Origin: Spirochaetota bacterium
GTDB taxonomy: Bacteria; Spirochaetota; Brevinematia; Brevinematales; Brevinemataceae
Reading direction: 5' to 3'
Length of the DNA: 64,000 nt
NCBI GenBank assembly: GCA_030154445.1
Contig: JAGUQW010000011.1
Coordinates: 62,001-126,000, forward strand
Part shown: piece after piece, positions 58,458 through 63,791 of the stretch
How positions within the stretch are numbered: the first letter of the stretch is position 1
How the letters are laid out: each line of letters starts with the position of its first letter
The notes under the pieces: generated by a model
Seen by the model: only the letters and a program-made list of their open reading frames with translations
The model's database searches: none
What the model was told of the DNA's origin: nothing
Translations under genes and position numbers: made by a program

Positions 58458-59183
58458 TTAAGGAATAGAATTAGTTTGATCTGCATAGAAACCACTAACT
58501 GGTCTATTTTGTGCATTTCTATATTGTTTTGAATTATTTGGATCATAAATCCAAATGCCGTCTTTAACAAAAGAATACAAATATATTTCTTCAGAGTCTA
58601 ATTCTAATTCGATTTCAAATATTCCTGCTCCTTTATGAGTAAGTTGATGAGAAAAAGGATTCCAATTATTAAAATCTCCAGCAATAGTAATAATATTAGC
58701 ATTTGTATTTTGATATTGAAAAATATAAGTATTATTTGAGATCCAAAAAGGAAATTTTTTATTAGGAATAAAATCATTAGTTAGATTAAGAATAGATAAT
58801 TTTTGTCGTCCCATATCAAATTCATGATTAGGATTAAGAGGATCGGTAATCCAAAATCCATCAACTTTAAAACGATATTTATATTTTCCAGCAGGGATAC
58901 GATTTTTCAAAGAGAGTACCCAAATATTAGAACGAGATTCTTCCATTTGCAAATTTTTTTGCCAATTATTAAAATCACCGGCAATTTGTACAGATTTGGC
59001 AGGACCTTTGTAGAAAAAAAGAATAGAATTACTGAGAATCAAAGGAGATTGAAAATTGATATCAGAGATATCTTTTGTGAGAAAATCATTTATTTGACGA
59101 GCATCTGGTAGTATCATACGAGATTGTGAACTTATGATAGCAGGAAAGAGAAAAAATAAGAAATATATTTTAATTGGTTTCAT
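58458..59183 (-). CDS. Exported protein with two tandem CBM48 glycogen-binding-like modules
   Basis: 241 residues: signal peptide (MKPIKIYFLFFLFPAIISSQ), then two copies of the early-set/CBM48 module. The first (~50-125) has VQIAGDFNNWQ and AGKYKYRFKVDGFWITDPLN; the second (~150-225) has ITIAGDFNNWNPF, LYSFVKDGIWIYDPNNS. These match AMPK-type glycogen-binding modules, which bind alpha-glucan. No catalytic domain is attached. An exported alpha-glucan- or other glycan-binding role is inferred. The -10 box lies only six bases before the ATG and no ribosome site is present. Confidence 0.85.
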   Translation of the reverse strand: MKPIKIYFLFFLFPAIISSQSRMILPDARQINDFLTKDISDINFQSPLILSNSILFFYKGPAKSVQIAGDFNNWQKNLQMEESRSNIWVLSLKNRIPAGKYKYRFKVDGFWITDPLNPNHEFDMGRQKLSILNLTNDFIPNKKFPFWISNNTYIFQYQNTNANIITIAGDFNNWNPFSHQLTHKGAGIFEIELELDSEEIYLYSFVKDGIWIYDPNNSKQYRNAQNRPVSGFYADQTNSIP

Positions 59184-59282: not shown

Positions 59283-60677
59283 ATGAATAATATCTTATTT
59301 GTACTAATAGATTCTATAGATAAAAATTTTTACTTGCGTTATCAAGATAAGCTTAGTAATATTCACCAAAAATTAGTAAGCAAATTAAATAATATAGATA
59401 TACTAGTTGTTGGTCATCAAGATAGTTTAATCACTGATTTGAAGTTTTCTGATTCAAAATCTCTCTATCAATATATTGCTAAAAATGCACAACAAAGAGA
59501 TGTTGTTATTTGTGATGCTTTTGCAGGATTACTTTCTTTAGTAGATACAGAAGATGTAGTTAATTATATGAGAAATAATCAATATGATGTTTGTCTAACA
59601 GAAAATATCCCTGATGGGCTAGTTCCTATGATTATTTCTCATGAATTTCTGGATGATTTTTGGAATTTTATTGAGAAAGATCAAGTTATACAATCTTCTT
59701 TAAAAGAACTGATTGACTGGGAATATAAAGGTATCGATGTAGGTGTATATTTGTCAGCTTCTTTGTTAATTATGGAAAGAATAGATTTTCTTCCCGTTAA
59801 TAAAGGTGCTATAGAATATATTAGTAATTTGATGGATAATCCAAAATTATCTATTCATACGATAGATAATTTATTAATAGAAAAATCAGTGATGTTACGC
59901 CATAATCCTCAATATATAGCTATAGAAATTTCTTCACAATCAGATGGTTTTCATAGTAAATCTTTTTCAAATAAAGAGATGGGTATAGATCTTTTTAGAA
60001 AGATTATAACAGAAATTGATGAGTTATGTCCTGAAACATTGATATCTATAGGAGTATGGGGTGATCCTTTTTTGCACAGTGCTTTCATAGAATTATTTAT
60101 GCTATTGAATACTATTTCAAATAAAGTGCTGATAGAATGCAGATCGCTCTGTTTAAATCAAGAATTTACAGATTTAGTTCTTGCTCGACCAAATACAGAA
60201 TTAATTTTCGATGTTAGTTTTACCGTAGAATCACTTTTCAAACAGTACAAAAAAAATGCTCATAGCTTGGAACAAATTACTAATTTTATTAAATCATTAC
60301 CTAATAAAGATCATGTTTGGGTACGCTTGACAAGATGTTTGGAAACTGAAGAAAGTATCAAATATTTTTTGACAGAATGGAAATATTTAAAAGTTTTAAT
60401 TACAAAAGCTGATTCTTTTGGTATGGATAATAAAGTTGTTGATTTAGCTCCTATTAAGAGACATCCTTGTTTTGCTTTGAGAAGAGAGTTGACTATTTTA
60501 AATGATGGACGAGTATTGTTATGTCGTCAAGCAGATACCATTATTGGTTCTTTATTAGAAGAATCACTAATAAGCATTTGGGCAAAAAATCAGGTATCTT
60601 TTGATAAACATAAAAAACAAGAATACAAAATTTGCGATACTTGTAATAATTGTGATGATTGGTGGATTTGGAATTAA
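59283..60677 (+). CDS. Spiro-SPASM protein (radical SAM-like, lacking the CxxxCxxC cluster motif)
   Basis: 464 residues. The first ~170 look like a GT-A/nucleotidyltransferase fold (VVICDAFAGLLSL, VCLTENIPDGLVP). A radical SAM-like barrel follows, but where CxxxCxxC should stand (YIAIEISSQSDGFHS, ~211-225) there is no cysteine. The C-terminus keeps a SPASM-type Cys set: Cys396 (HPCFALR), Cys414 (GRVLLCRQ) and C-x-x-C-x-x-C at 451-457. This is the layout of the spirochaete-specific spiro-SPASM family. It probably binds an auxiliary Fe-S cluster without radical chemistry. Function unknown. Good promoter and AGGAG. Confidence 0.82.
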   Translation: MNNILFVLIDSIDKNFYLRYQDKLSNIHQKLVSKLNNIDILVVGHQDSLITDLKFSDSKSLYQYIAKNAQQRDVVICDAFAGLLSLVDTEDVVNYMRNNQYDVCLTENIPDGLVPMIISHEFLDDFWNFIEKDQVIQSSLKELIDWEYKGIDVGVYLSASLLIMERIDFLPVNKGAIEYISNLMDNPKLSIHTIDNLLIEKSVMLRHNPQYIAIEISSQSDGFHSKSFSNKEMGIDLFRKIITEIDELCPETLISIGVWGDPFLHSAFIELFMLLNTISNKVLIECRSLCLNQEFTDLVLARPNTELIFDVSFTVESLFKQYKKNAHSLEQITNFIKSLPNKDHVWVRLTRCLETEESIKYFLTEWKYLKVLITKADSFGMDNKVVDLAPIKRHPCFALRRELTILNDGRVLLCRQADTIIGSLLEESLISIWAKNQVSFDKHKKQEYKICDTCNNCDDWWIWN

Positions 60678-60745
60678 AAAATAAATGTTAATAAAATAAT
60701 ATTACTTCCGATAGATTATATAAGTAAATCTATAGAGGTATTTGT

Positions 60746-61933
60746 ATGCTTGATTTCAATTATTTTCATATTCCTACACGCATTATTCAAGGCTATGAAT
60801 GTTATACCAATTTAAGTGAATTATCAGAATTATTAAAAAAAAGAGTAATTATGGTAACAGATCAAAATCTTATGAATCTTGGTGCAACACAAAATCTTCG
60901 TCGTTTTATAGAAAATGTTTCTTATGGATTAATATTCCATCCAGTTTCTAATGAGTGTAGTGAAGGTGTTCAGGATGAGGCTATTTTATTAGCCAAAGAA
61001 AGTTGTGTACAAACAGTGGTAGGATTTGGAGACACTCATGTGTTATCTATTGCTCGAGCAATAGTACAATTTGCAAGTACAGATAACAATAAGATATCTT
61101 ATATTGAAATTCCTTCGATTCCTTGTATTTATACAGGATTGTTAGAAACATACTATATTGCTTCAAATTATGAAACATTAAAAAAACCATATAAAGATCT
61201 AGAGTCAAGAGCTGATTGGTTAGTTTTAGATTCTTCTTATACTGAATTTAGTAGAGTAGATAATATTTTGAAATCTGCTATTCATAGCTTGTCTTATGCC
61301 TTGGATGCTTTATTTTCTCGTAATGTTACGATGCTTTCAGAGTCTTATGCATTAAAAGCAATAGAATTAATTGTTTCTGCTGGTAATAGATTACCAAATG
61401 AGCCAACTAATGTAAAACTCAAAAATGAATTAATGATGGGATCTTTGTTAGCAAGCTTTGCTATACAAAGTTCTAGTTTGGGTATTTGTGCAGGATTAGC
61501 GATGTCTTTGTCTAATTCTTTAGTTTGTTCCGAAATAGAAGGATCTGGGGCTGTCTTGATGAGTTCTCTCGAGTATTCGTTAGTATCTAATTTAGATAAA
61601 TTTCAAAAAATTGCTCGTATTTTAGAAATTGAGGAAAGAGATCCTTTAGAAAGTAGTTTACAAGTATTAGGTGTTATTCATAATTTATTACAACAAATGG
61701 AAATACAACCTTTATCCTCTTATACCTTTACTTCTTCTATGTTAGATATTGTTGCCAAACAAGCATCACAATATCACTTTATGCTTGATTTATCTCGCCC
61801 AGCTGGTTTTTATGAATTAACTGATATACTAAATAATGCTGTGAAAAATGGTATTAATATGAATAGTGATCTTCAATCAGATGAGGTATCTTTAGATAAT
61901 AGATCTAAGGAAAAAAATACTATTACTATATAA
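60746..61933 (+). CDS. Iron-containing alcohol dehydrogenase-like protein with lost metal ligands
   Basis: 395 residues with the overall Fe-ADH/dehydroquinate-synthase-like fold: the N-terminal Rossmann part (KRVIMVTDQNLMNLG), then the helical domain. Key sites are altered. The GGGS nucleotide loop reads GFGDTH (93-98), the TAGTGSE region reads PCIYTGLLE, and the D-x-x-x-H segment aligns with HSLSYALDALFS. The later two metal histidines fall on Cys or Ser and Glu (GICAGLAMSLS, SEIEGSG). It is therefore probably not a metal-dependent dehydrogenase. It follows the spiro-SPASM gene by 68 bases; comEC starts directly after its stop. Confidence 0.7.
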   Translation: MLDFNYFHIPTRIIQGYECYTNLSELSELLKKRVIMVTDQNLMNLGATQNLRRFIENVSYGLIFHPVSNECSEGVQDEAILLAKESCVQTVVGFGDTHVLSIARAIVQFASTDNNKISYIEIPSIPCIYTGLLETYYIASNYETLKKPYKDLESRADWLVLDSSYTEFSRVDNILKSAIHSLSYALDALFSRNVTMLSESYALKAIELIVSAGNRLPNEPTNVKLKNELMMGSLLASFAIQSSSLGICAGLAMSLSNSLVCSEIEGSGAVLMSSLEYSLVSNLDKFQKIARILEIEERDPLESSLQVLGVIHNLLQQMEIQPLSSYTFTSSMLDIVAKQASQYHFMLDLSRPAGFYELTDILNNAVKNGINMNSDLQSDEVSLDNRSKEKNTITI

Positions 61934-63130
61934 ATGTTACAAAAATATTTCATTTTTTTCTATCTGTTTATTATAATTACTAATAATTTTTCATCTGAAA
62001 TTTCTATTTTTTCTTATCAAGAATATCAAATCACTTCTTTTCCGAATATAGAGATTAACAATAAAAAAGAACGCTATGTTATTTCTTCTTATCAACAATA
62101 TTTATATTTTGATTTTCCTGTAGAATTGTCTCCTTTTAGTAAAATAGCTGTATATGGAACTAAACAATATAATTCTAGTTATATTAATGTCCCGCAAAAT
62201 ATTGTTTGGTATCATTCGTTATTTCCGATATTGAATAAATTTTCTGTGTTTCGTATTGATATCACTAGAGAAATCATTAATTTATATCCTAAATCAGGAG
62301 CTTTAATTACAGCATTAATTTTAGGAAATAAAAGTTTTCTTGATGATGAGTTTATGGAATACATAAGATTTTCTGGATTAGCACATTTATTAGCTCTATC
62401 TGGATTACATTTGATTATTTTTATAATGTTTTTCATCTGGTTGTTTTCTTTGTTAGGTATGTCGAATAGATTTTTAGGAGTCAGCACATTACCATTTTCT
62501 CTTTTTTATTTATTTTTAGGTGGTTTAGGGATTTCTTTACAAAGAGCTGTTTTATTTCATTTCTTAAGTTCTTTTTTTTCTTATATAAGAATTCCTGTAT
62601 TAAACACAAAAATATTTTTTATTGCTTTATTTGTTAATATGATTATTTCTCCCAACAATATATATTCCTTATCTTTTTGGTTAAGTTATATTTCCGTGGC
62701 AGGTATTGTTTTTTCCTATAAATTTTGGTATGATGTACTATCAAAATATATTATACCAGTAATAAACTCATATTTAGCTGTTTCTTTAGCAGCATTTATG
62801 TCAGTATCACCAATCTTGATTTTAGTATTTGGAGTACTCAACATATATTCAGTGTTTTCAAGTACAATTATTGTACCATTTATGCCTATACTGTTAATAT
62901 TTTGTTTTTCAGCAGTATTTTTCAGTTACTATGGAATCTCATTTGAGATGCTAGATCAAATAATATTTTTATTTTATCGTTTTATTTATTTAATTGCAAA
63001 AATATTTTCTGAAATACCCATGGGTGTAATGTTTTTTCAAAATAAAATGATAGCTTCTGTAGTATTTATTTTGATCATGATAATAATGGTAACGATATTA
63101 AATAAAAAAAGGATTTGTGATGTGGGATGA
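61934..63130 (+). CDS. comEC: ComEC/Rec2 competence-domain membrane channel (no nuclease domain)
   Basis: Inner-membrane channel for single-stranded DNA uptake. The 398 residues begin with a membrane segment and a ~90-residue periplasmic OB-like part. The polytopic competence domain follows, with the hallmark SGLAHLLALSGLHLIIF and GISLQRAVLFHFLSS. The metallo-beta-lactamase nuclease domain found at the C-terminus of many ComEC proteins is absent. The ATG immediately follows the stop of the upstream gene, and the end overlaps nth. With dprA it hints at transformation; comEA and pilus genes are not in the window. Confidence 0.88.
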   Translation: MLQKYFIFFYLFIIITNNFSSEISIFSYQEYQITSFPNIEINNKKERYVISSYQQYLYFDFPVELSPFSKIAVYGTKQYNSSYINVPQNIVWYHSLFPILNKFSVFRIDITREIINLYPKSGALITALILGNKSFLDDEFMEYIRFSGLAHLLALSGLHLIIFIMFFIWLFSLLGMSNRFLGVSTLPFSLFYLFLGGLGISLQRAVLFHFLSSFFSYIRIPVLNTKIFFIALFVNMIISPNNIYSLSFWLSYISVAGIVFSYKFWYDVLSKYIIPVINSYLAVSLAAFMSVSPILILVFGVLNIYSVFSSTIIVPFMPILLIFCFSAVFFSYYGISFEMLDQIIFLFYRFIYLIAKIFSEIPMGVMFFQNKMIASVVFILIMIIMVTILNKKRICDVG

Positions 63131-63791
63131 TACTAAATTAATCAATATGTTTGATATACTAAAAAATAGTCCTCAATTATCAGAAGCACCTGTTGTTTTT
63201 TTTATGAGTACCGTTGGAGATGGTCCTTTGAGAGTATTAGTGTCGACAATCCTTAGTTTAAGAACAAAAGATGAGGTTACCGGACCAGCCACTGTGCGAT
63301 TATTCGATGTTGTGACAACACCAAAAGATATCAGTGATATATCGATAGAACAAATAGAAAAATTAATATATCCTGTCGGATTTTATAAAACTAAAGCAAG
63401 ACAAATACATAAGATCGCTCATATATTGCAAGATACCTATGACTCTACAGTTCCTGCAGATTTGGATTTGTTATTAGAATTACCAGGAGTAGGCAGAAAA
63501 ACAGCTAATTTAGTCATGGCAGTAGCTTTTGAAAAACCAGCTATTTGTGTTGATATCCATGTACATAGGATTTCTAATAGATTAGGGATCTGTAAAACCA
63601 AAAATCCAGAAGAAACAGAATTTTATTTGCGTGATACTGTTTCTCAAAATATTTGGAATGAATTTAATAGACCTTTAGTTGCCTTAGGTCAAGTAATTTG
63701 TCGTCCTATTTCTCCAAAATGTTCATTGTGCCCTATAGAAAATATGTGTGATAAGAAAATTATAAAAAATATAAAAGCCAATAAGAGGTAA
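63120..63791 (+). CDS. nth: Endonuclease III (Nth)
   Basis: DNA glycosylase/AP lyase that removes oxidised pyrimidines. The 223 residues contain the helix-hairpin-helix LPGVGRKTANLVMA with the catalytic Lys, VDIHVHRISNRLG with the catalytic Asp, and the C-terminal Fe-S ligands in CRPISPKCSLCPIENMC. The N-terminal ILSLRTKDE replaces the usual ILSAQTTD. The start is ATG 63120, seven bases after AAAGG; GTG 63117 is possible. It overlaps comEC by 11 bases. Confidence 0.95.
   Translation: MWDDTKLINMFDILKNSPQLSEAPVVFFMSTVGDGPLRVLVSTILSLRTKDEVTGPATVRLFDVVTTPKDISDISIEQIEKLIYPVGFYKTKARQIHKIAHILQDTYDSTVPADLDLLLELPGVGRKTANLVMAVAFEKPAICVDIHVHRISNRLGICKTKNPEETEFYLRDTVSQNIWNEFNRPLVALGQVICRPISPKCSLCPIENMCDKKIIKNIKANKR

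Follow-up and report, generated by a model that had tools for sequence, protein, structure and literature searches.

A Spirochaetota family of alcohol dehydrogenase-fold proteins that lack the iron site, encoded behind flgM in most families sampled, and its local pairing with a spiro-SPASM gene

Two adjacent genes in a 64,000-nucleotide stretch of a Spirochaetota contig (the window) encode proteins with enzyme folds that seem to have lost their cofactor ligands. Do they represent two inactivated enzymes kept together for a common task, or did they become neighbours for unrelated reasons? A first-pass annotation had favoured the former, proposing a spirochaete-specific complex in which both would serve as binding or regulatory proteins. 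Both open reading frames were found as annotated, and are listed here with the genes on either side.

58458-59183, minus strand: protein of 241 aa whose start resembles a signal peptide, with two domains of the AMPK1_CBM/CBM48 glycogen-binding type
59283..60677, plus strand: gene 1, spiro-SPASM relative, 464 aa (TIGR04321, E=9.2e-58; PF13186, E=2.3e-9)
60746..61933, plus strand: gene 2, an Fe-ADH-fold protein without a metal site, 395 aa, referred to below as the ADH-like protein (ADHL)
61934..63130, plus strand: comEC, N-terminal-type competence protein, directly 3′ of ADHL (PF03772, E=8.9e-38)
63117..63791, plus strand: nth, endonuclease III (TIGR01083, E=7.9e-52; 176 bits, under the cut-off of 212)

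Genes 1 and 2 are on the same strand with a spacing of 68 bp. They run into comEC and nth, as had been described: the ADHL stop codon abuts the ATG of comEC, and comEC and nth overlap by 14 bp.

Two Pfam models recognise the gene 2 product, PF00465 (Fe-ADH, E=1.6e-13) and PF25137 (ADH_Fe_C, E=2.2e-12), each above its curated cut-off. The Fe-ADH fold extends over the full length, and both Pfam models are matched by all 37 ADHL proteins tested. The homology to iron-containing alcohol dehydrogenases such as lactaldehyde reductase FucO and 1,3-propanediol dehydrogenase covers both domains, and the best PDB profile matches of ADHL are methanol and propanediol dehydrogenases (E=2e-43 to 1e-41). The window comes from a Brevinema-like spirochaete; the nearest named record is that of an uncultured Brevinema MAG, with 81% identity in the ADH-like protein. 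An AlphaFold model of the protein, built from only two sequences, reached a pLDDT of 38.

ADHL differs from these enzymes in that the four metal ligands, the GGGS loop and the TTxGTGSE motif are lost or eroded. Alignment to real Fe-ADHs placed the corresponding residues of the window protein as follows.

61022..61039, plus strand: GFGDTH, residues 93-98 (G93 to H98), at the position of the GGGS dinucleotide loop
61112..61138, plus strand: PSIPCIYTG, residues 123-131, at the position of the Fe-ADH (P)TTxGTGSE motif
61283..61297, plus strand: His180 and Tyr184, at the Asp and first His metal-ligand positions
61502..61534, plus strand: Met253 and Glu263, at the second and third His metal-ligand positions

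Neither cofactor motif is therefore present in its usual form, and the Asp/His/His/His set of ligands is replaced by His, Tyr, Met and Glu. The reading of the GGGS loop as GFGDTH agrees with the alignment. The metal positions had been given as His, Tyr, Cys/Ser and Glu, which is correct for His180, Tyr184 and Glu263, while the third is Met253 and not Cys or Ser. Of 50 ADHL proteins, which represent more than 25 families, not one has an intact metal site; all four ligands are gone in 32, one remains in 15 and two remain in three. The full set is intact in 29 of 32 other Fe-ADHs from Spirochaetota. Shifted metal ligands were considered and rejected, there being no alternative conserved set of Asp, His, Cys or Glu residues in the ADHL alignment. 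Even within the window's own family, position 180 reads His, Gln, Gln or Phe. Three other residues are retained across all 50 proteins, namely G95 (invariant), K104 (K or R) and D162, so that ADHL may still bind a nucleotide or catalyse a metal-free reaction. Pseudogene decay was rejected for both genes of the pair. Their dN/dS is about 0.2 (ADHL 0.16-0.21, gene 1 0.18-0.30), which shows purifying selection on each, and neither loss can be put down to decay.

Every one of the 18 genomes in the window's class has the same ADH-like gene, and a profile made from these sequences finds ADHL across Spirochaetota, the phylum whose genomes were searched. In a maximum-likelihood tree a branch with support of 100/99 sets all the phylum's other Fe-ADHs apart, and the window's class groups beside the ADHL proteins encoded next to flgM (support 97/96), so the window protein belongs with these metal-siteless proteins by both tree and profile score. 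The possibility that the class genes are paralogues of the flgM-linked ones is rejected by the tree and by the single strong match in each class genome. The top NCBIfam match of the window protein, and a family matched by all 37 members tested, is ErcA (NF041833), an alcohol dehydrogenase-like regulatory protein. ErcA is encoded beside sensor kinases, in contrast to the linkage of ADHL to flgM, and the window protein reaches 78 bits, far under the equivalog cut-off of 550. No dedicated NCBIfam model for ADHL appeared among the matches of the 37 members, which were to families named as dehydrogenases and ErcA, and current models would presumably name these proteins iron-containing alcohol dehydrogenases. 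It is thus close to certain that ADHL is an unrecognised Spirochaetota family of Fe-ADH-fold proteins without the iron site, with a characteristic synteny to flgM. Two further Fe-ADH-like genes with degenerate ligands, S/S/L/F in G156 and S/R/I/Y in G223 (loci L255 and L253), are distinct from the flgM-linked gene.

Outside the window's class, the same-strand gene directly 5′ of ADHL is flgM (PF04316, anti-sigma-28), usually preceded by rsmI; the products of these neighbours were identified as FlgM and RsmI. Among the matches listed, in which weak FlgM or ADHL matches are under-represented, flgM lies directly upstream of ADHL in all 77 non-class genomes that have both (65 + 12), and the 65 cover 17 families. 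Between the FlgM domain and the ADHL match lie 19-497 bp. Two exceptions were seen among genomes outside these lists: a Treponema-like genome in which rsmI-flgM has no ADHL behind it (L195), and a locus in which ADHL has no flgM beside it (L175). The place behind flgM, in the order rsmI-flgM-ADHL, appears to be the ancestral one. The first-pass annotation had suggested a search of spirochaete genomes for co-occurrence and adjacency of its pair; the conserved partner that such a comparison reveals outside the class is flgM (77 of 77 listed), and not the spiro-SPASM gene.

Several genes vary on the 3′ side. A SpoU-type methylase directly follows ADHL in treponeme-like families (L198, L199, L203-L206, L210 and others). 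In one locus of f44 (L206) flgM adjoins the SpoU-type methylase and ADHL is gone from between them, and the same is probably true of a locus in f11 (L200). A gene with a LarB-like AIR-carboxylase domain comes after ADHL in L167, L171 and L211 (and L157); in two loci a LarC-like gene comes next.

The distribution of ADHL was compared with that of FlgM in 296 genomes, taking as ADHL-positive those with a best match at or below 1e-78 to a 37-sequence profile. Counted per genome, ignoring kinship and with several genomes incomplete, 217 have both ADHL and FlgM, six ADHL only, 20 FlgM only and 53 neither (26 discordant), and most of the last group comes from two families, f36 and f49, without which the counts are 217, 6, 20 and 10. 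The first of these, apparently Borrelia-like (f36, 31 genomes), has the flagellar protein FlhA in 31 of 31 genomes and FlgM, ADHL and spiro-SPASM in none. The second, apparently Sphaerochaeta-like (f49, 12 genomes), lacks all four. Nine Fe-ADH loci from two f49 genomes fall above the 1e-78 line; five have the complete D/H/H/H set, three have two or three ligands and one is degenerate. Because f36 has FlhA and neither FlgM nor ADHL, ADHL tracks FlgM and not flagella as such, a pattern resting largely on that one flagellated family. The 20 FlgM-positive genomes scored without ADHL indicate that it is not indispensable.

The lost metal site and the place directly behind flgM together suggest that ADHL is probably a regulatory or binding protein. 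Judging from sequence and gene order, the chances are evenly balanced that it is a non-catalytic protein of this kind working with FlgM and sigma-28 in the control of late flagellar genes. ADHL could be a partner of FlgM/FliA, or it could tune both by sensing a ligand. A narrower version, in which a dedicated pseudo-dehydrogenase forms a third component of the FlgM/sigma-28 switch and binds FlgM or FliA, perhaps together with a dinucleotide or metabolite, is a tentative suggestion and leans towards the doubtful. If true, it would tie late flagellin expression to metabolic state, and ADHL would disappear together with FlgM, also from lineages that keep their flagella.

Spirochaete flagella are built inside the periplasm. 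The FlgM/FliA system of spirochaetes has ADHL encoded directly behind flgM in most of the families sampled, and an Fe-ADH-like component of that system was not found in the literature searched. A review describes FlgM of T. denticola as stabilising FliA and interacting with CsrA (PMC12655853), and in its account deletion of flgM lowers flagellin expression, so that spirochaete FlgM is unlike the enteric model (PMC12655853). This unusual behaviour leaves room for a role of ADHL. As a protein conserved and linked to flgM in most of the phylum, it is an immediate candidate for a component still missing from this regulation.

Other functions have to be weighed against this one. ADHL could still be an enzyme, with a metal-independent NAD(P)-using activity or a lyase or isomerase activity on the Fe-ADH fold. 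Some members of the superfamily do work without the usual metal site, and the residues kept in all 50 proteins, like the purifying selection, would fit an active protein. This is nonetheless unlikely: both GGGS and TTxGTGSE have eroded, and even members of one family differ in what replaces the ligands, which is uncommon where proteins share an active site.

A function alongside rRNA methylation, within a translation or housekeeping cluster of RsmI on the 5′ side and a SpoU-type methylase on the 3′ side, is a still weaker candidate. It would account for the presence of rsmI 5′ of flgM in most loci and of the methylase directly behind ADHL in treponeme-like families. Against it, the immediate neighbour is FlgM, the genes 3′ of ADHL vary outside the treponeme-like families, and ADHL is absent from the FlgM-less families, one of them flagellated.

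The role with FlgM and sigma-28 also has evidence against it in the window's own class. ADHL and flgM are adjacent in none of its 18 genomes. In the window's genome rsmI-flgM is on contig C4 (L213), followed by a fliM-like gene in the opposite orientation and no ADHL, and ADHL precedes comEC and nth on contig C11. Other families of the order (L073-L078) share the arrangement DUF4921 - AEC permease - ADHL - GAF-GAF-SpoIIE phosphatase - laccase-domain protein, with some members missing, and these neighbours could point to another pathway. By analogy with ErcA, ADHL of this order might act as sensor in a partner-switching pathway that runs through a GAF-SpoIIE phosphatase; ErcA is the top NCBIfam match of the window protein, and the permease and DUF4921 before ADHL and the phosphatase after it recur in those families. 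The linkage is confined to one order, no close phosphatase orthologue scores in the window's own family, and the genes are unlinked in f5, making a sensor of this kind about as improbable as the link to rRNA methylation. In the window's lineage ADHL lies away from the flgM locus, and comparison with the sister genus shows that a block rearrangement brought it beside the spiro-SPASM gene.

The neighbourhoods within the class show how the window arrangement arose. Among the class genomes compared, spiro-SPASM and ADHL are adjacent only in the window's genus (three genomes). The sister genus (G073) has the gene order DUF4921-ADHL-comEC-nth. Its spiro-SPASM gene lies at a distance of 7 kb, preceded, as in the window, by the CBM48-type, aminotransferase and apt genes. 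Comparison of the two indicates that the ADHL-comEC-nth block was placed behind spiro-SPASM. In a one-contig genome of the window's order (G026) the two genes are 1.24 Mb apart, and no spiro-SPASM gene was seen in any of 20 non-class ADHL neighbourhoods. The pairing in the window is a local accident, resulting from the moved block. The window's genome, too, has DUF4921 no more than 5 kb from ADHL, past the end of the window (L214:8464-9777).

The spirochaete-specific complex of two inactivated enzymes, which had been proposed from the adjacency, is accordingly very improbable: the pair is on one strand and 68 bp apart here, is adjacent in two other genomes of the genus, and belongs to two families that are widespread in Spirochaetota and both missing from f36 and f49, but the adjacency goes no further than one genus and came about through a rearrangement, 7 kb separate the genes in the sister genus, no class genome compared outside the window's genus has them side by side, none of the 20 non-class ADHL neighbourhoods has spiro-SPASM, FlgM explains the shared absence in f36 and f49 equally well, and 34 genomes are discordant.

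Gene 1 thus needs to be considered by itself. It matches TIGR04321 (spiro-SPASM) with 196 bits, under the 250-bit cut-off, and the alignment is near full-length (67-509 of 510). It groups with the spiro-SPASM relatives of its class in a tree and keeps the SPASM cysteines. The radical-SAM motif CxxxCxxC is nowhere in the protein, as had been noted, and gene 1 differs in this from the 19 of 64 relatives that keep it. The relevant positions are as follows.

59934..59957, plus strand: residues ~218-225, SSQSDGFH, aligned with the site of CPQxCxxC in relatives
60468..60653, plus strand: SPASM cysteines C396, C414, C454 and C457, invariant in 64 of 64 members; C451 is not invariant

Five C-terminal cysteines (396, 414, 451, 454 and 457) are indeed present, in line with the five SPASM cysteines first described; four of them are invariant, C451 being the exception. 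C396, C414, C454 and C457 are consistent with a role as ligands of one 4Fe-4S cluster, and on the missing motif the gene 1 protein probably no longer carries out radical-SAM chemistry. Together with the altered metal site of ADHL, this bears out the observation that both proteins lack cofactor-site residues, the Fe-ADH-like one as a member of a metal-siteless family found across Spirochaetota.

The statement that the radical-SAM motif is missing from spiro-SPASM proteins at large proved wrong. CxxxCxxC is kept by 19 of the 64 spirochaete members sampled, from at least 10 families (f9, f11, f12, f23, f33, f42, f48, f50, f52, f53 and a few of f22), and absent from 45. It is missing in the window protein and in 13 of 13 other class members, and present in 19 of 50 outside the class. 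Its state changes at least four times in the (unrooted) spiro-SPASM tree, and the four SPASM cysteines remain constant. The natural reading is that the ancestor of the family would have been a radical-SAM protein. By these comparisons gene 1 encodes a protein separate from ADHL, whose lack of the motif is shared with several other lineages of its family. It offers a second useful case, in which a cluster motif changes repeatedly while the SPASM cysteines are invariant.

Pfam searches of 21 spiro-SPASM members found Radical_SAM in 13 and the MobA-like NTP_transf_3 in six, and a profile of the family matched BtrN best among PDB structures, with a cytidylyltransferase structure at E=6.5e-6. These matches indicate a family in which an NTP-transferase-like domain is followed by a radical-SAM and then a SPASM domain; in gene 1 the order is an NTP-transferase-like N-terminus, a radical-SAM-like middle without CxxxCxxC and a C-terminal SPASM domain. 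The GT-A-like N-terminal part that had been suggested for gene 1 is therefore supported at the level of the family, by NTP_transf_3 and the cytidylyltransferase match. The CBM48-type gene at 58458-59183 on the minus strand is kept beside spiro-SPASM in the window's family.
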